From contig NZ_JBDXXH010000001.1 of the NCBI RefSeq assembly GCF_040373385.1, positions 487,483 through 551,482 of the forward strand: a stretch of 64,000 nucleotides of DNA. Reading direction: 5' to 3'. The notes under the pieces were generated by a model that ran no database searches, was not told the origin of the DNA, and saw nothing but the letters and a program-made list of their open reading frames with translations. The DNA comes from Nitratidesulfovibrio sp. (lineage in GTDB: Bacteria; Desulfobacterota; Desulfovibrionia; Desulfovibrionales; Desulfovibrionaceae). A program made the translations under genes and the position numbers. Below are positions 45,219-53,567 of the stretch, piece by piece (position 1 is the first letter of the stretch; each line of letters begins with the position of its first letter).

Positions 45219-46871
45219 CTAGCGCTTGCCGCCGTCCATCTGCTGGATGATCGACCGCAGCCGCTGGGCCATCTGCGCCAGGGCGCGAACGGCCTCGCTG
45301 GCCGCCTCCATGCCCCGTGCCGATTCGCTGGCCACGTCGTTGACCTCGGTGACGGCCCGGCTGATCTGGTCCGACGCGGCGGACTGCTCTTCGCTGGCGG
45401 CGGCGATGGACTGCACCTGTCCGGCGGTGTTGTCCGCGAATTCCACGATGCGCCGCAGCGCCCCGCCGGATTCGTCGGCCAGCCCGGTGGCGTCGGCCAC
45501 GGCCTGGGTGGCCGTATCCATGTTGTTCACGTTGCGCTGGGCCGCCGTCTGGATGGCCGAGATGCGAGTTTCCACTTCCTTGGTGGCGTTGGTGGTCTTT
45601 TCGGCCAGCTTGCGCACCTCGTCGGCGACAACGGCAAAGCCGCGTCCGGCGTCACCGGCGCGGGCCGCCTCGATGGCGGCGTTCAGCGCCAGCAGGTTGG
45701 TCTGGTCGGCTATTTCGTTGATGACGTTGATGACCTCGCCGATGGATTCGGCATCGCGTCCCAGCGACTGCATGTCGGTGCGCAGGCGGGTGGCGATTTC
45801 GTGCACGCGCGATATGGACCGCCCGGCGTTTTCCACCACCTGCTCGCCCTTCTGGGCTTCTTCGCGGGTGGACCTGGAGGCGTCCGCGGCCAGGGTGGCG
45901 TTGCGGGCGATCTCCATGACCGTGGCGTTCATCTGGTCCATGGCGGTGGCCGTCTCGGCCATGCGGGCGCGCTGCACCTCGGCCCCGGCGGATACCTGCT
46001 GGGTCTGGGCGGCCAGTTCCTGCGAGGCGTCGGTAAGGTCGCCCACGATGGCGGCGGCCTCTGCGGCCACGCGGCGCATGGTATCCACCAGTGCATTCAC
46101 TTCCTGCTCACGCGCAGTGGCCGCCTGCATGGCGGCGTGGGCCTGCTCGGCCTGGTGGCGGGCCTCGTCGCCCTTGGCAGAGCAGTCGTTCAGGGTTTCC
46201 TTCAGCCTGCCGACCATGGCCGTCAGGTCGTCACGCAGCAGTCCGAACTCGCCCGCCATGCTGCCACTGGCCGTGGCGTCCAGCCTGCCTGCCGCCACCT
46301 CGCGCGAGAAGGCCTGCAACGCGGCCAGCGAACGGGTGATGCCCGTGATCACGGCCAGCACGAACAGGGTGATGAGCACGCCCATGCCCACCTCGATGAC
46401 CGTGTTCACCGTCTTGACCAGGTTCCCGATTTCGTCGGCCTTGTCTTCGTACGCCTTGCGAATGTCGGCCAGCGCCGGTTCCACGGCCCGCCCGGCCTGG
46501 ATCATGGCGTCGGTTTCGGCCACCGTGCGGAACACCTCGTCCAGCGAGGCGTTGTAGCGGGAAAGGGTGGAGCGGCCCTTGTCGCACATGGCGGCGTTGC
46601 CGGGGTCCGTTGTCGCGATGCGTTGCAGCAGCGAATCTGCGGTGCCGATGTGCTTGCGGGTCTTGTCGGCCCACTGCATTTCCTTGCGCATGAGAAAGTT
46701 CTTTTCCTGGCGGCGGGCCTGCAACAGCTCTGTGTTGGCGTCCACGGCCAGGGCGCGCAGCGCAAGGGCCCGTTCGACCCTGGCGGAGCCTACCCAACTG
46801 GCGGTCACGATGGCGGCCAGGGCTACGAGAACGGAAGCGAGCAGCAGATACAGCCTGGTCTTGATCCCCAT
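45219..46871 (-). CDS. Methyl-accepting chemotaxis protein
   Basis: A 550-residue chemoreceptor. Helix 1 (about residues 8-28) and helix 2 (about 160-180) bracket a small helical periplasmic domain (about 29-158) of the four-helix-bundle kind. A HAMP-like region and a long coiled-coil signalling domain follow, with the hairpin tip [20 protein letters not shown] and [16 protein letters not shown]. The gene is divergent from the sigma-54 activator and has a near-consensus sigma-54 promoter at 46962-46977 and an activator-type palindrome further upstream at 47082-47095, so it is probably controlled by that activator. The ligand is unknown. Confidence 0.95.
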
Positions 46872-46961
46872 GAAGGTGCTCCTCTTTAGGAAACGGCGAC
46901 GGCGGCGACACGGTCCCCTGCGGTGTGCGCACGCGTAACGTCGGTTCAGGGTCAGGGAAGC

Positions 46962-46977
46962 AGCAAGCTTCGTTCCA
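46962..46977 (-). promoter_or_regulatory. Sigma-54 promoter of the chemoreceptor gene
   Basis: Read on the minus strand the sequence is TGGAACGAAGCTTGCT, matching the consensus TGGCACG-N4-TTGCW at all but one fixed position. GG and GC have the obligatory spacing. It lies about 90 bp upstream of the ATG at 46871. Confidence 0.85.
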
Positions 46978-47081
46978 TAATTCACATGCAAATATTTTGT
47001 TTTTATTTCAGGTTGTTGTGCTGCCTGCGCAAGGTCTTTCTTGCTTCGCGCAGGGGAATGGGATAGCGCTGTGAAAAGTTT

Positions 47082-47095
47082 TGCAACGTTTTGCA
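47082..47095. promoter_or_regulatory. Activator-binding palindrome upstream of the chemoreceptor promoter
   Basis: TGCAACGTTTTGCA (reverse complement TGCAAAACGTTGCA) is an inverted repeat TGCAA-N4-TTGCA. Its centre is about 112 bp upstream of the -24 element at 46977, the usual range for a sigma-54 activator site. It is also 70-83 bp upstream of the activator gene itself, so autoregulation is possible. A second, weaker inverted repeat GTGCA-N6-TGCAC lies at 47105-47120. Confidence 0.7.
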
Positions 47096-47164
47096 CCGTA
47101 CGTAGTGCAGGCCGTTGCACGGTGCGACGGGCGAGCCGTGAACGGGCAGGGCAGGGGAGGGGGA

Positions 47165-48748
47165 ATGGCCGGAGGGACGACACAGGACATGGCCGCATCG
47201 CTGGGGCCGCTGCTGCAAGGGCTGTTTGACCAGCCGGTGGCGGCGCGCACCCTGCTGGACCGCATCCCCCTGCCGCTGGCGCTTGTTTCCGCCGAACGGC
47301 GGGTGGTTTTCCTGAACCAGGCGGCTTGCGCCCTTACGGCCATGTCGCGCGAGCGGGCACTGAACCTGCCGTGCCGCTACGTGTTCCGATGCAGCCTGTG
47401 CACCGGGGGCTGCCCGCTGGACGTGGTGGACAAGTCGCCAGCGGCCAGCGTGGCCCCGGTGGCGCGCGAGGCGGATATCGTCAACGCCGACCGGGCGCGC
47501 ATTCCCGTGCGGGTGACCTGCGGTGCCCTGACCGCCCCCGATGGCGGCAGGGTGGGGTATTTCGAGACACTGGAAGACCTGCGCCTGTTCCGCCCGGCAG
47601 AGGCCCGGCCCGAGTGGCCGCAGGGCTTTGGCGACATGCTGGGGCACAGCCCCGAGATGGAGCGGGTGTTCCGGCTGCTGCCGGGCATCGCCCAGACGGA
47701 TTCCTCGGTGCTGGTCACCGGAGAAACGGGCACCGGCAAGGACCTGTTGGCCGAGGCGCTGCACAATGCCTCCAACCGGGCCAAGGGGCCGTTCATCAAG
47801 GTGAACTGCGGCGCCCTGCCGGAAAGCCTGCTGGAATCGGAGCTGTTCGGCCACCAGAAGGGCGCCTTTACCGGTGCGTCGGAAAACAAGCCGGGTCGCT
47901 TCCGGTTGGCCCACAACGGCACGCTGTTCCTCACGGAAGTGGGCGACCTGCCCCTGCCGTTGCAGGTCAAGCTGCTGACCTTCCTGGACGACAAGATCAT
48001 CCACCCGCTGGGTTCCACGCGTGGGGTGCACGTGGACGTGCGCATCATGGCCGCCACCCATCGCGACCTGCGCCGCATGGTGCGCGAGGGGCGCTTTCGC
48101 GAGGACCTGTTGTACCGCCTGAACGTGGTGCGCTTTCATTTGCCGCCCCTGCGCGAGCGTGGCGACGACGTTGCCCTGTTTCTGGCGCACTACCTGAAAG
48201 TGTACGCGGGCATGTTCGGCAAGCGGCTGACCGGGTTCACTCCGGCGGCCGAACAGGTACTGTTGCAGCATGCCTACCCCGGTAACGTGCGGGAATTGCG
48301 AAATATCGTGGAGTACTGCGTCAACGTGTGCCAGGACACCCACGTGGACCTGCCGCACCTGCCCCGTTACCTGCTGGAGGAAAGCGGCGAGCCCGACGCC
48401 CCCGATGGCGGCGGCGGTGCTGCGAAGATGGCGCGGGAGCACACCGGGCACTCCGGGCACACGGGACGGAGCGGGCAGCACGACCACGGGGGCTTGCCGG
48501 TGAGTGGCGGCATGTCGGGCAGGGCAGGCAACGCAGGTGCTGGCGCCGGGCCACCTGCCCGTGCCGACGAGGGCGCACCACCCGCCGGTGTGCCCCATGG
48601 TGATGCCACGTGGGCCGAGGCGGAGCGCCGCCTGATCATGGAGGCACTGGTGCGGGCGCGCGGGCGGCGCGGCGCGGCGGCCAGTGAGTTGGGCTGGGCG
48701 CGAACCACATTGTGGCGCAAGATGCGCCAGTACGGGTTGGACCAATGA
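47165..48748 (+). CDS. Sigma-54-dependent activator with cysteine-cluster PAS domain
   Basis: A 527-residue enhancer-binding protein. The N-terminal PAS domain (about 30-150) contains Cys70, Cys76, Cys79 and Cys83, a cluster that could bind an Fe-S centre or sense redox. The AAA+ domain (about 158-400) has [14 protein letters not shown] for sigma-54 contact, and [20 protein letters not shown] long Gly/His-rich linker (about 405-475) leads to a Fis-type helix-turn-helix ([20 protein letters not shown]). There is no receiver, so it is probably controlled by its own PAS domain. ATG 47165 follows a strong purine-rich site. Two sigma-54 promoters with matching upstream palindromes flank it. Confidence 0.93.
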
Positions 48749-49140
48749 ACAGCAGCGAGAACGGTACGGTGCCGTCCGGGACGGCCAGGCAGGAGGGCGG
48801 CGTGCGCGGCAACGTGCTGGTGGCCCTGCACCGCGATGCGGTGGCGCCCCGGTTCGACCGGGCCACAGAGGCGTGGCTGGGCCGCATCGACAGCGAGGGC
48901 GGGCTGGCGCGGTCGCGCACCATGGTGCTGGCCAAGGCATCGGCAGAGGAACTGTGCCGGATCATCCTGACGGAGAACGTCGCCATCGTGGTGTGTTGCG
49001 GCATAGAACAGGAATTCTACGACTACCTTACCTGGAAGCGCATCACCGTGCTGGATGGCGTGGTGGGGGGGCGCGATGCGGTCATCGGGGCGTTGCTGGC
49101 CGGTACGCTGAAGGCCGACGCCGTGCTGGGCGGCGTGTAG
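48745..49140 (+). CDS. NifX/NifB-C-like (dinitrogenase Fe-Mo cofactor family) protein
   Basis: A 131-residue protein. After a polar 20-residue start the sequence NVLVALHRDAVAPRFDRATE matches the opening of the dinitrogenase iron-molybdenum-cofactor biosynthesis family (NifX, NafY C-terminus, NifB C-terminus), followed by IVVCCGIEQEFYDYLTWKR and DGVVGGRDAVIGALLAGTLK. Such domains bind Fe-S or FeMo-type clusters; small stand-alone members are common in anaerobes with unknown function. Two adjacent Cys (IVVCCG) could ligate a cluster. It overlaps the activator gene by ATGA, so it may modulate it, for example by delivering a cluster to the PAS domain (inference). Confidence 0.78.
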   Translation: MNSSENGTVPSGTARQEGGVRGNVLVALHRDAVAPRFDRATEAWLGRIDSEGGLARSRTMVLAKASAEELCRIILTENVAIVVCCGIEQEFYDYLTWKRITVLDGVVGGRDAVIGALLAGTLKADAVLGGV

Positions 49141-49391
49141 CGGGTTGCCGCGCCCCCTGGGCCTCAACCGTCGGGGGGGGGGCGTTTGCCGTTGGTGGGC
49201 AGGCGTTGATATTTTCCATTCCCGCGCGGGCATTCAGCCTGCCTTGTTCTCTCTTTCCTTTCTTCTTTCTTTGCGTGCCTGCATTCCGGGCGTCCGCGGG
49301 TGCCGGACCGGGGTGGGCGCGCCGTGTGCCCTGTTTGGGCTGGACCGTTCCGTGCCGCTTCAAATCCCTCCTCTTTGTTCCGTTATTTGCG

Positions 49392-49407
49392 ATGCAAAAT
49401 GTTGCAT
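49392..49407. promoter_or_regulatory. Activator-binding palindrome upstream of the pseudo-receiver promoter
   Basis: ATGCAAAATGTTGCAT is an inverted repeat ATGCAA-N4-TTGCAT. The core TGCAAAATGTTGCA differs at one position from the site at 47082-47095. Its centre is about 112 bp upstream of the -24 element at 49512. Confidence 0.75.
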
Positions 49408-49511
49408 TATGATGCGCGGGATGCGTGTTGTCGTATCTGGAAGCGACGACACGGCGTGGGGGAACAGTGCGCCCATACGTCAACATGCCGCAACCATGAG
49501 GTAACTATTGC

Positions 49512-49527
49512 TGGAACGGACATTGCT
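49512..49527 (+). promoter_or_regulatory. Sigma-54 promoter of the pseudo-receiver gene
   Basis: TGGAACGGACATTGCT matches TGGCACG-N4-TTGCW at all but one fixed position. It shares TGGAACG with the promoter at 46962-46977. It lies 194 bp upstream of the ATG at 49721; the intervening leader contains only a 43-codon frame beginning at 49528, too close to the promoter to be translated. Confidence 0.85.
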
Positions 49528-49720
49528 ATGAATTTCACGAGGCGGGCCGTCAGCGCGTGCGGGTACTGCCTTCGGATTTCCATCCCCGCCTGCGGCTGCG
49601 CCCGGGATACGCGCCGCGATCGTCCCTGTGATCCGGACGCCGTACCCCGGACGGGATGACGGGCAAACGCGACAACAGGCCAACGCACCAACGGGATAAC
49701 GAGACAGTGGGCGGTGCACC

Positions 49721-50149
49721 ATGTGGATGACCTCGGTGCTGGTATTCGATACCGATACGTCCTTCGCCCGGCACGTGGCCGAATTGCTGGGCGGCGGTGG
49801 CAGCGCCTGCGTGGTGGCGGCCGAGCCGGACGATGCCCGCCGCCTGCTGGCCACAGGCGGCTTCAGCGTGTTCCTGTTCGGCTGCGCCGAAGGGCCGCCC
49901 TGTCCGTTGGGGCTGCTGGATTCGGCGCGGCGGCTGGCCCCGCACATGGGGGTGATCCTGATGGTCCGTCCCGCCCAGGTGCGGCTGTCCATCCAGTGCA
50001 TGAAGCGCGGCATCGACGATGACATCCTGATCCCCTTCGACATGGATTCCATGTTGCGCAAGGTGGCATCGGTGGCGCAGCGTCGCCGTCTGGCTCCCTC
50101 GTCACTGGTGGCGGGACATGGTGCGCCAGACTCGCGGGATGCGTCCTGA
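49721..50149 (+). CDS. Degenerate receiver-domain protein (pseudo-receiver)
   Basis: A 142-residue protein with the alpha/beta rhythm of a CheY-type receiver: VLVFDTDTSFARHVAELL for the first strand and acidic pair, VFLFGCAEG at the strand that should hold the phospho-Asp, VILMVRP near the Thr position and ILIPFDMDSMLRKV where Lys-Pro is expected. Both the phospho-Asp and the Lys are replaced, so it is probably not phosphorylated in the standard way. It has no output domain. It is driven by the sigma-54 promoter at 49512 and belongs to the regulon of the nearby activator. ATG 49727 is an alternative start. Confidence 0.7.
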   Translation: MWMTSVLVFDTDTSFARHVAELLGGGGSACVVAAEPDDARRLLATGGFSVFLFGCAEGPPCPLGLLDSARRLAPHMGVILMVRPAQVRLSIQCMKRGIDDDILIPFDMDSMLRKVASVAQRRRLAPSSLVAGHGAPDSRDAS

Positions 50150-50356
50150 TTGTGCGATGCGCGCTGCCGTACCGCTCCGGCAAAGGCAGGCGCGCCGGGG
50201 AGTGCTGGTGCGTTGCTGCCATGGCTTGGTGCGAATGCACCGGCATGTTGCGGTGTGCTGGCCGGATGCCGATGCGTTGCCGCAGGGATGGCACTGCGGT
50301 GTATAAAGGTATAGGCTCGCGGATGGTGACGGAGAGGCATCTTCCTTTGCATTCGC

Positions 50357-50385
50357 TTGCGTCTGCGAAGCTGGCGGCGTAGGAT
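50357..50385 (+). promoter_or_regulatory. Sigma-70-like promoter
   Basis: TTGCGT and TAGGAT are separated by 17 bp. A short inverted repeat GATGCAG / CTGCATC (50383-50400) overlaps the expected start of transcription. The coding start of the next gene is 45 bp downstream. Confidence 0.55.
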
Positions 50386-50430
50386 GCAGCGCCCTGCATC
50401 GTCGTGCAGCACAGGAGAACGCAACGAAAT

Positions 50431-50739
50431 ATGAACCCTCGTGTACTTGCGGACCTTAGGAAATTTCTGAAAGTTGCCGATCATGCTCCTGGCCGGTTGC
50501 GGCTCAAGGTGGACCTTGCCCTCCTTCGGCATCCGGCCGCCGCGCAACTGCGCGCCCTGACGCCCGAAACGTGGCCGGGACTGCGCGGGACACGGTTTGA
50601 CGTGTTCACCTCCACGCTCACGCTGGACTACGATCCGGCGGTACTGCCGGGTGAACTGTTTGAAGAATTGCTGGCGGCGCCCGACGATGAGCGGGCCGTG
50701 CAACTTGCGGCCAGGCTGTGCGGCACCACGCCAGCCTGA
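50431..50739 (+). CDS. Small HMA-like protein
   Basis: A 102-residue protein. The segment DHAPGRLRLKVDLALLRHP followed by a GTRFDVFTSTLTLDYDP strand and LPGELFEELLAAPDDE recalls HMA-type (ferredoxin-like, PF19991-style) domains near metal transporters and magnetosome or microcompartment genes. The metal-binding CxxC of true heavy-metal domains is absent; the only Cys is near the C-terminus. The start at 50431 has AGGAGA about 11 bases upstream. Function unknown. Confidence 0.65.
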   Translation: MNPRVLADLRKFLKVADHAPGRLRLKVDLALLRHPAAAQLRALTPETWPGLRGTRFDVFTSTLTLDYDPAVLPGELFEELLAAPDDERAVQLAARLCGTTPA

Positions 50740-50966
50740 CGGCAACGCTGAAAATCATGTCGCGCTTGCGGGGGCATGGCTAGGCTGGTCAGGCAGCATG
50801 GTGCCGCCTGGGCAGAACGGGGTAGGTTGGATTGCAATGGGCCGGATGGGGCATCGCCGTGTCCCGACGCGTCCCGAAGCGTCCGCCGACGCATCTTCCG
50901 GATGCGGCGGGAGGGTGCATTCGGCCGGACGCGTACGGACGGCCCCGGCCCGGCGGCGCTCGGGTT

Positions 50967-50983
50967 GGTTGGTACGGCCAACC
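50967..50983. promoter_or_regulatory. Inverted repeat upstream of the second chemoreceptor
   Basis: GGTTGG-N5-CCAACC, 41 bp upstream of the ATG at 51024. The arrangement suits an operator or a short leader hairpin. The rest of the 50740-51023 spacer shows no gene. Confidence 0.45.
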
Positions 50984-51023
50984 TGTGATGTCGTGACGTC
51001 AACGTTCCGGACGGGAGAAACAC

Positions 51024-53003
51024 ATGACGCTCGCCAAAAAGCTGATTCTGGGTTTCGGCCTTGTGCTCGTGCTGCTGGTTGCAATGGGGGGCATTTCCTA
51101 CAAGGCGCTTACCGACGCAACGACGGGATTCAACGATTACCGGCGCACGGCACGCGGTTCGCTCATGAGCGGGGGCATTATGGCCGACATGCTCAAGATG
51201 CGCCTGGGTGTGCTCAGCTACATGAATACCTCGTCCGAGGCCGCGTTGCGTTCCTATGAAGAAGGTCGCTCGGATCTGGCCAAAGGCTTGGACGAGGCCG
51301 ACAAGAGTATGAAGAATCCCGAGCGGCGCAAACACCTTGAATCCGTCGTCGCGTCGTACAAGGAATACGGCGCTGCCATGGATGAACTGCGCAAGCAGAC
51401 TGCGGCCCGCACGGTTGAGGCAGACCGCATGGGTCAGCTTGGACCGCAGATCATGGACGTTGGCAGGCGTGCGGCAGACGCGGCCGAACGCGAGGGCGAC
51501 CTGGCGGGCAGGGGCAAGGTGGAAGAGGCGCTGCGCCTCGTCCTTGAGGCCCGTGTGCCCATTGCCCGGCTGCTGCATGACGCCGACCGCAAATGGTACG
51601 ATCAGGGCAAGGCGGCGCTGTCCAATGCGGCCAGTGCGATTGGTCGTTTGCAGGCCGATCTGCGCGGGCCGGGGGCACGTGAGACCGCACGCGAAATGCA
51701 GGCCCTGTTCAGCCAGTACATGGCCGCCTTCGAGCCCATGGTTCAGGCCGGATTCCAGCGCGAGGAACTCTACACCAACCGTCTTGGCAAGCTCGGCCCG
51801 GCCATCGCTCAGGCCTGCGATGCCATCCAGAGCAGCTATGAGTCGGAACAGCGCGAAATCGGCCCGCGCGTGCAGGCATCCAACGATCAGGCCCAGATGC
51901 TGACCGGGGCCATTGCCCTGGCGGCGGTGCTGGCGGGCGTGGCCATTGCATGGCTGCTGATCCGGGTGGTCATGGCTCAGTTGGGCGCGGACCCCGCGGC
52001 CCTTGCCGCCATCACCCGGCGCATCGCGGCGGGCGACCTGGACGTGTCGTTCGACGCGGCCAGCGGCAAGCTGCGCGGCGTGTACGCCGACATGAAGGAC
52101 ATGACGGACGGCCTTGTCTCGGTGATCACCGAGGTGCGCTCCGGCGCCGAAAACGTGGCCTCCGGCAGCGAGGAACTTTCCGCCTCGGCCGAAACCCTGT
52201 CGCAGGGGGCCACCGAGCAGGCGGCGTCGATTGAAGAGATATCCTCGTCCATGGAAGAAATGGCGGCCAACATCCGCCAGAACATGGAAAACGCCCGCCA
52301 GACGGAAACCATTGCCATGCAGGCCGCCACCGATGCGGAAGGCGGCGGCAAGGCCGTGGGCGACACCGTGGGCGCCATGCGCGAAATCGCGGCCAAGATT
52401 TCCATCATCGAGGAAATCGCCCGCCAGACCAACCTGCTGGCGCTGAACGCCGCCATCGAGGCGGCCCGCGCCGGTGAACACGGCAAGGGCTTTGCCGTGG
52501 TGGCCGCCGAAGTGCGCAAGCTGGCCGAACGCAGCGGCCAGGCCGCCGCCGAGATCAGCGAACTGTCGTCGTCCAGTGTGGCCGTGGCCGAGCATGCCGG
52601 CGAAATGCTGACCAAGATGGTGCCGGGCATCCGCCGCACCGCCGAACTGGTGCAGGAAATCGCCGCCGCCAGCAACGAGCAGAACGTGGGCGCGGAACAG
52701 GTCAACAAGGCCATTGCCCAACTCGACCAGGTCATCCAGCAGAACGCCTCCGCCTCGGAAGAAATGGCCTCCACGTCCGAAGAACTCTCCAGCCAGGCCG
52801 AGCAGTTGCAGGCCACCGTCTCGCGCTTCCGCGTGGCGGCGCTGGACGACGGAATGGCGCGCACGCCGCGCCGGGCGCAGCCCAAGGTGGCGCCCCGTGC
52901 CGTTGCGGGCCAGACGCCACGCAAGGCGGTGCCCGGCAAGGGCGGCAACATCGCGCTGGACATGGATTCCGATGCGGATGACAGTGAGTTCGAGCGCTTC
53001 TAG
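51024..53003 (+). CDS. Methyl-accepting chemotaxis protein with long helical sensor
   Basis: A 659-residue chemoreceptor. Helix 1 is at about residues 8-28 and helix 2 at about 293-313; the periplasmic part between them (about 265 residues) is nearly all helical and of a size typical of helical bimodular (HBM) sensors. The cytoplasmic part has a HAMP-like region and the signalling tip [20 protein letters not shown] with [16 protein letters not shown]. The C-terminal 60 residues are basic then acidic (ending [10 protein letters not shown]). GGGAGA precedes the ATG. It is followed 24 bp later by a cheW gene, so receptor and coupling protein are co-expressed. The ligand is unknown; HBM sensors often bind organic acids. 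Confidence 0.95.
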
Positions 53004-53027
53004 CGCCGGTCAGCTTCGGGAGGCAGC

Positions 53028-53567
53028 ATGTACGAGACCAGCCAGTATCTGACCTTCACCCTGGGCGAAGAAGTGTTCGCGCTGGACATCAGCACCGTGC
53101 GCGAGGTGCTTGAACTGACCGCCATCACGCGCATACCCCGCACGCCGGAGTTCATGCGCGGGGTCATCAACCTGCGCGGACGCGCCGTGCCCGTGCTGGA
53201 GTTGCGCCGCAAGTTCGGCATGGAACCGGTAACCGACACCGTGAACACCTGCATCATCATCGTGGAGGCCGAACTCGAGGGCGAGGCCGCCGTGATAGGC
53301 ACGCTGGTGGATTCGGTGCGCGAGGTCATCGAGATTCCGTCCGACGCCATAGAGCCCGCCCCGCGCATGGGCACCGCCGTGCGGCAGGACTTCATCAAGG
53401 GCATGGGCCATCGCAATGACGGCTTCGTGATCATTCTGGACGGCAACCGCATCTTCTCGGTGGAGGAACTTGCCGCCACCGGGGCCGCCATCGGCAACGT
53501 GCCGCTGGCGGGCGACGGCGGCATGCCCGCCGCCGCGTCGGTGGGCGGCGAGGGCGCGCCCGCGTAA
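53028..53567 (+). CDS. cheW: Chemotaxis coupling protein CheW
   Basis: A 179-residue CheW-domain protein that links receptors to the CheA kinase. The beta-barrel core is recognised by YLTFTLGEEVFALDISTVRE, GVINLRGRAVPVLELRRKFG and GTLVDSVREVIEIP, ending with GFVIILDGNRIFSVEEL. The last 30 residues are an Ala/Gly-rich tail. It lies 24 bp after the chemoreceptor gene with GGGAGG before its ATG, and a strong terminator follows, so the two genes form one operon. Confidence 0.95.
   Translation: MYETSQYLTFTLGEEVFALDISTVREVLELTAITRIPRTPEFMRGVINLRGRAVPVLELRRKFGMEPVTDTVNTCIIIVEAELEGEAAVIGTLVDSVREVIEIPSDAIEPAPRMGTAVRQDFIKGMGHRNDGFVIILDGNRIFSVEELAATGAAIGNVPLAGDGGMPAAASVGGEGAPA

Follow-up and report, generated by a model that had tools for sequence, protein, structure and literature searches.

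The window, as the whole analysed stretch is called here, comprises 64,000 nucleotides of Nitratidesulfovibrio sp. (assembly GCF_040373385.1, contig NZ_JBDXXH010000001.1, positions 487,483 to 551,482), and it contains a gene for a sigma-54 activator, together with a NifX-like gene, between two promoters of the -24/-12 type that face a chemoreceptor gene on one side and a pseudo-receiver gene on the other. Window positions are used for the coordinates of the features in 45219..53567, and the own genome (G000) is the 4.2-Mb genome from which the window comes. The elements that carry the argument, including two upstream activating sites (UAS) and an open reading frame (ORF) named ORF142, are the following.

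45219..46871, minus strand: MCP1, a chemoreceptor of 550 amino acids (MCPsignal 1.7e-47), predicted target of promoter A
46962..46977, minus strand: promoter A, -24/-12 sigma-54 type, TGGAACGAAGCTTGCT, one mismatch from TGGCACG-N4-TTGCW
47079..47095, minus strand: UAS A, TGCAAAA-CGT-TGCAAAA, containing the palindrome TGCAAAACGTTGCA at 47082-47095
47165..48748, plus strand: the activator, with PAS, Sigma54_activat and HTH_8 (Pfam) and an ATG start kept in the 8-locus alignment
48745..49140, plus strand: the NifX-like partner, overlapping the activator stop codon, with a weak PF02579 match and a fold match
49393..49409, plus strand: UAS B, TGCAAAA-TGT-TGCATTA, containing the palindrome TGCAAAATGTTGCA at 49393-49406
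49512..49527, plus strand: promoter B, -24/-12 sigma-54 type, TGGAACGGACATTGCT, one mismatch from TGGCACG-N4-TTGCW
49721..50149, plus strand: ORF142, a single-domain pseudo-receiver with a weak Response_reg match and a receiver fold, predicted target of promoter B

These features very probably form a local sigma-54 regulon in which the activator drives MCP1 on one side and ORF142 on the other. This is what the original prediction had proposed from the letters of the DNA, and the conservation of the sites and their fixed spacing support it, with binding by the activator as the predicted step. The activator has the characteristics of a sigma-54 enhancer-binding protein, namely an AAA+ domain with the GAFTGA motif and a C-terminal Fis-type helix-turn-helix (HTH) domain (HTH_8 4.6e-12). 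Its binding sites would be two elements built of half-sites 10 bp apart (TGCAAAA-N3-TGCAWWA), each some 112 bp upstream from its -24/-12 promoter, and ATP hydrolysis together with DNA looping would open the sigma-54 RNA polymerase at promoters A and B, so that transcription from both is expected to depend on RpoN. The outputs would be MCP1 and ORF142, perhaps also ORF102, MCP2 and CheW, which follow ORF142. Most likely, then, an unusual input, consisting of a three-cysteine PAS domain and a NifX-fold partner, is coupled in this genus to chemotaxis-type genes by activation from an enhancer at a fixed distance.

A pattern scan bore out the coordinates, the strands and the one-mismatch status of the two 16-bp promoters, which are the sole matches to TGGCACG-N4-TTGCW at up to one mismatch in the window. 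When up to two mismatches are allowed, the window has 11 matches, compared with 17.2 in shuffled sequences, and weaker matches to this pattern therefore carry no meaning. Nine exact matches to TGGMACG-N4-TTGCW are present in the own genome (three with the reversed-pattern control), two of them being promoters A and B, and only these two have a repeat of the TGCAAAAYGTTGCA type at up to two mismatches within several hundred bases; the nearest other repeat of this quality to a genomic sigma-54-like site lies about 4.3 kb off, on contig C8. The repeat centre is 111.5 bp from the -24 end in region A and 112.5 bp in region B, as measured against a predicted 111-113 bp. Random scattering of the motif had been named as evidence that would speak against the prediction, and in the own genome TGCAAAAYGTTGCA at up to one mismatch occurs only twice, both times at this locus. 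On the other hand, the reversed-pattern control also gives two matches, and the bare count is therefore not above chance (with up to two mismatches allowed, the numbers are 40 for the motif and 25 for the control). What speaks against chance is the exactness, position and conservation of the repeats, not their number.

The orthologous locus was found in six genomes of the same genus (G001 and G003-G007) and as a fragment in a seventh (G002); region A was compared in 8 loci and region B in 7, the partial locus L070 being used for region A only. The distance between the repeat centre and the -24 end is constant throughout, at 111.5 bp in 8/8 loci for region A and 112.5 bp in 7/7 for region B. 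The spacers between repeat and promoter contain no gap columns, though just 37 of 104 columns (A) and 20 of 105 (B) are invariant; the flanking intergenic segments contain 4, 17, 192 and 54 gap columns. Promoter A is invariant in all 16 columns in 8 genomes, within an invariant run of 26 bp, and promoter B in 11 of 16 columns in 7 genomes. Among the 14 columns of the repeat, 12 are invariant in region A (8 loci) and 11 in region B (7/7 loci), single copies being 0-1 letters away from TGCAAAAYGTTGCA in A and 0-2 in B. When G001-G007 were searched with TGCAAAAYGTTGCA at up to one mismatch, 18 matches were obtained (8 with the reversed control), 12 at the locus and 6 elsewhere. The expectation that orthologues keep the palindromes along with the activator holds for both sites within the genus, but not for the exact palindrome outside it: in the 12 other-genus loci L057-L068 it is absent at up to one mismatch and occurs twice at two mismatches (L059 and L064), and a related 10-bp element is found in its place. 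The stretch that follows promoter B was also weighed as a conserved non-coding RNA, on the model of DVU2359 in PMC4641369, and this idea was set aside: the 193 columns up to ORF142 include 32 invariant and 54 gapped ones.

Two further blocks lie between the activating sites and the promoters, one of them resembling a site for integration host factor (IHF).

47006..47018, plus strand: candidate IHF-like block of region A, TTTCAGGTTGTTG, one or two mismatches from WATCARNNNNTTR and identically placed in 8/8 loci
49481..49498, plus strand: conserved block CAACATGCCGCAACCATG between UAS B and promoter B, with CAACATGC invariant in 7/7 loci

The consensus WATCARNNNNTTR was taken from an excerpt of PMC3897727. 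No consistent IHF-like block of comparable quality was found in region B of the seven same-genus loci, and since the block is consistent in region A and not in region B, the involvement of IHF is a possibility only; the CAACATGCCGCAACCATG block could be an IHF site or a weak activator site. It is very improbable that the repeats bind some other protein, such as a repressor or a nucleoid protein, and that their distance from the promoters is incidental. Such a protein would suit the position of UAS A, which is also near the activator start, and the IHF-like block of region A, but it would not account for the near-identical fixed distances of the two sites from their sigma-54-like promoters, nor for the related 10-bp element that stands upstream of such promoters in other genera. 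With some 70 bp between UAS A and the start of the activator gene downstream of it, the activator may regulate itself, and the example of the activator DVU2106 makes self-repression through this site a possibility.

The original prediction placed a single activator gene between the two sites. An activator with PAS, AAA+ and Fis-type domains is indeed there, but the interval holds two genes, the second being that of the NifX-like protein. This protein scores 17.4 bits against PF02579, under the cut-off of 26.3, yet its predicted structure (AlphaFold2, AF2; mean predicted local distance difference test score, pLDDT, of 89.8) has a NifX-type fold, with 2yx6 as the best Foldseek match (E=3e-7). 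The fold matches comprise PH0822, MJ0327, NifX (9ian), NafY and the D. gigas orange protein ORP (2wfb), so that the partner shares its predicted fold with the NifX/MTH1175/ORP family, and cofactor binding is putative. The orp genes encode proteins of the ORP/NifX fold.

The wider family was assessed in 55 loci with a strong match to the activator, taken from among the matches listed, with one genome per species and with the duplicate loci L071, L072, L073 and L095 removed before counting. The relatives were sampled by similarity to the activator, and all frequencies describe that sample. In 50 of the 55 loci the next gene downstream, within 400 bp and in the same orientation, is NifX-like; the five exceptions are a contig end (L105), a gene 1,079 bp downstream (L089), a gene on the opposite strand (L066) and two loci with none within 3 kb (L057 and L109). 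The PAS cysteines C71, C80 and C84 of the activator are present in 55/55 loci, and two cysteines of the NifX-like protein are kept in 98% and 96% of 53 rows. The gene of the NifX-fold partner is part of the regulatory system, and the signal, perhaps metal, Fe-S or redox, would probably enter via the three-cysteine PAS domain with the NifX-fold product as partner.

This activator-NifX family is wide, and the window locus forms one of its branches; in other branches, operons with pseudo-receiver, CBS and DASS-type symporter genes are among the predicted targets. CBS genes occur within 9 kb of the activator in at least 22 of the 55 loci and a DASS-type symporter in at least 17, these counts being lower bounds because many contigs are short; the symporters carry the Pfam labels Na_sulph_symp/CitMHS, and one locus has a SulP permease. 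Chemoreceptors within 6 kb were found at 7 of the 55 listed loci, all of them from the window's genus. In the activator tree, which has a midpoint root only and two long rows of unsure position, the window clade (7 rows, 100/100) is joined by G009 (97/84) and then by G022 (96/85). The locus of G009, the nearest relative, has the activator, the NifX-like gene, the promoter, a pseudo-receiver, CBS and the symporter; that of G022 has no CBS gene and no close symporter. No DASS symporter is present at the window locus, and the own genome gives no match at E<=1e-10. Six of the seven same-genus genomes yielded a single partial match of 25% identity, whereas the self control G014 was detected, as was the symporter of G009, which is 78% identical to the query.

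ORF142, the predicted target of promoter B, has a receiver fold (AF2 mean pLDDT 86.5, receiver structures being the best Foldseek matches) and lacks both the phospho-acceptor Asp and the conserved Lys, with Gly and Ile in those columns, which agrees with the original description of it as a pseudo-receiver. The ORF142 profile, once iterated, spread to receivers of every kind (211 matches), and receivers were therefore sorted by the acceptor residue; 23 of the 104 receiver ORFs near activators, ORF142 included, lack the acceptor Asp. Upstream of these pseudo-receivers, exact TGGMAYRN4YTGCW was found in 8/16 cases outside the genus and in 7/7 inside it, compared with 0/81 canonical receivers and 12/673 other ORFs; a looser promoter pattern reached more pseudo-receivers, and the comparison with controls was made with the exact pattern alone. 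Seven of the 12 other ORFs are receiver-bearing by an ORF142-derived profile, and the two that were scanned consist of a cytidylate-kinase-like domain and a receiver. Such a fusion with a sigma-54-like promoter upstream is seen at L094:14860-16131 and L102:14826-16040, in DASS-type symporter clusters.

The label of palindrome fits the activating sites in part. A palindromic reading is present, but the site is probably a tandem of two heptamers 10 bp apart that also happens to read as a palindrome. This form was evaluated in 22 regions outside the genus with 120 bp or more of sequence upstream of a sigma-54-like pattern, 12 of them before pseudo-receivers and 10 before other ORFs; 4 of the 16 pseudo-receivers outside the genus have no such promoter, and the 10 other ORFs were chosen from 12, the two left out being one region with the element at two mismatches and one too near a contig end. 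TGAAACA-N3-TGAAACA at up to two mismatches is present in 18 of the 22 regions (9/12 before pseudo-receivers and 9/10 before other ORFs), whereas shuffled controls gave a mean of 0.16 and a maximum of 2 regions. Alternative spacers between the heptamers gave 0-2 regions of 22, except N7 with 8. The element lies 69-115 bp from the -24 end in 17 of the 18 regions and 49 bp from it in one. UAS A has no mismatch to TGMAAMA-N3-TGMAAMA. In G009, all three genome-wide matches to the element at up to one mismatch (none in the reversed control) are at the activator locus, one of them just before the activator start; G009 is not an independent test, because the tandem form was noticed there and in the window. 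A separate arrangement is seen at L058:11525-11577, where an inverted repeat stands about 80 bp upstream of the pseudo-receiver promoter; each of its 23-bp arms consists of a pair of TGAAACA units spaced by 10 bp.

Several observations weigh against the regulon as described above, and the first concerns its reach beyond ORF142. The genes that follow are these.

50431..50739, plus strand: ORF102, a small protein conserved in the genus, with a very weak match to HMA_2 (E=0.22, below cut-off), putatively co-transcribed with ORF142
51024..53003, plus strand: MCP2, a second chemoreceptor by domain match, putative member of operon B
53028..53567, plus strand: CheW (CheW 1.3e-38), putative member of operon B

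In the window, ORF102 and MCP2 are preceded by intergenic gaps of 281 and 284 bp, which contain the conserved blocks GTATAGGCT and AAAATCATGT, respectively, and these blocks may be separate promoters. On this basis, the view that control is limited to MCP1 and ORF142, with MCP2 and CheW under promoters of their own, has nearly an even chance; it is compatible with the regulon and narrows its reach. It is opposed by gene order, as ORF142-ORF102-MCP2 is kept in six same-genus loci, with CheW next in the five that reach that far. MCP1, which is divergent to the activator, is 91-96% identical among six full-length same-genus copies. The well-conserved AAAATCATGTCGC block between ORF102 and MCP2 lies at window 50750-50786 and is perhaps a separate promoter of MCP2-CheW.

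The remaining points concern the sites and the choice of the activator. Both the window and G009 had suggested the tandem form before it was tested on the other regions, and the half-site and promoter patterns were chosen by the authors. UAS B has two mismatches to TGMAAMA-N3-TGMAAMA (P=0.005, 200 shuffles), and 4 of the 22 regions lack the element at two mismatches. TGAAACA-N3-TGAAACA at up to two mismatches has 11 other matches in the own genome (2 in the control), and one of the seven other exact sigma-54-like sites of that genome also scores (L178, P=0.003). In other genomes, the element at up to one mismatch is near the activator in 1/6 matches for G014, 1/4 for G026, 1/3 for G036 and 0/2 for G023. 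No sigma-70-type promoter for the activator was found in 46860-47200. Finally, the activator is assigned to the sites by proximity, and a paralogue with a similar HTH might also bind them. As for L178 itself (G000:C2:469216-469262), the sigma-54-like site precedes an ORF of 295 amino acids, with a TGAAACA tandem (two mismatches) about 14 bp above -24, and this ORF is possibly the target of another activator.

The paralogue belongs to a second activator-NifX cassette in the own genome (L069, G000:C5:186254-187774), in which the activator is 48% identical and is followed by a histidine kinase. If it were this protein, or another activator, that binds the sites, they would still be real sigma-54 enhancers and the local activator would work elsewhere. 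We regard this as improbable: within the genus the sites flank the local activator, and the paralogue locus has no TGCAAAAYGTTGCA site at up to one mismatch, holding one match of that type at two mismatches. In other genera, moreover, the related element stands at activator-NifX loci, and of the 27 loci (among the 55) that were checked for a second activator, 21 showed none. The local activator remains the preferred candidate for both sites.

The genes around its relatives point to a physiological context. According to excerpts of a 2025 paper (PMC11887813), DASS clusters of sulfate reducers, composed of Cache-domain kinases, response regulators, CBS proteins and DASS symporters, are tied to sulfate uptake. 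The genes around the relatives, often pseudo-receiver, CBS and DASS-type symporter genes, resemble these clusters, and we infer that they are the same; the window's genus differs in having no close homologue of the symporter. The link to sulfate uptake thus derives from the neighbour genes of the relatives and from that paper, whose main text, in the parts available, contains neither 'nifx' nor 'dinitrogenase', mentions sigma54 once in another context and names no sigma-54 activator of DASS clusters. Because several outer branches have CBS and symporter genes and a single genus has chemoreceptors, the change of targets would have run from symporter to chemoreceptor. A joint reading, which we offer tentatively and consider possible rather than probable, is that sulfate reducers have in common a hitherto undescribed two-protein sensor, made up of a three-cysteine PAS activator and a NifX-fold partner, which reads a metal, Fe-S or sulfur/redox signal and controls DASS-type sulfate uptake via 10-bp tandem TGAAACA-like sites and pseudo-receiver operons, and that in Nitratidesulfovibrio it was rewired to chemoreceptors while the site changed from TGAAACA to TGCAAAA. 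If this were true, the signal that sets sulfate uptake elsewhere would set swimming direction in Nitratidesulfovibrio. The locus offers a small, precise and testable regulon through which, in sulfate reducers, a chemoreceptor is linked with a sigma-54 activator. The activator-NifX pair and the 10-bp tandem site are a candidate regulator and DNA element for clusters like the published sulfate-uptake ones, and the parallel shift in binding site and in targets from one genus to a related one would be a ready case for studying regulon rewiring.

In the open-access literature covered, as titles, abstracts or passages, we recognised no description of this regulon or of such a sigma-54 activator-NifX pair. 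The sigma-54 regulome of D. vulgaris Hildenborough, as given in passages of PMC4641369, comprises the same kind of one-component activator with co-localised sigma-54 promoters and upstream sites; unlike the window locus with its chemotaxis-type targets, its Table 1 has no chemotaxis function label, chemotaxis being among the sigma-54-promoter operons without a found site. Another close likeness is to DVU2106/orp of the same organism, where, according to excerpts of PMC3897727, one sigma-54 activator has palindromic sites upstream of two adjoining sigma-54 operons, controls its own gene negatively and has IHF acting between site and promoter. The window shares with it the plan of one activator beside two sigma-54 operons with upstream sites, but the neighbours are chemotaxis-type genes and a NifX-like gene follows the activator. 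Furthermore, DVU2106 has GAFTDA (PMC4641369, in the passages available) where the window activator has GAFTGA, which by this motif places it outside the orp regulon. Elsewhere in the own genome, an exact sigma-54-like site is followed, about 1 kb further downstream, by a PF02579 (ORP/NifX-type) gene (L184 and L185, G000:C15:12810-14140), possibly the orp-type locus.

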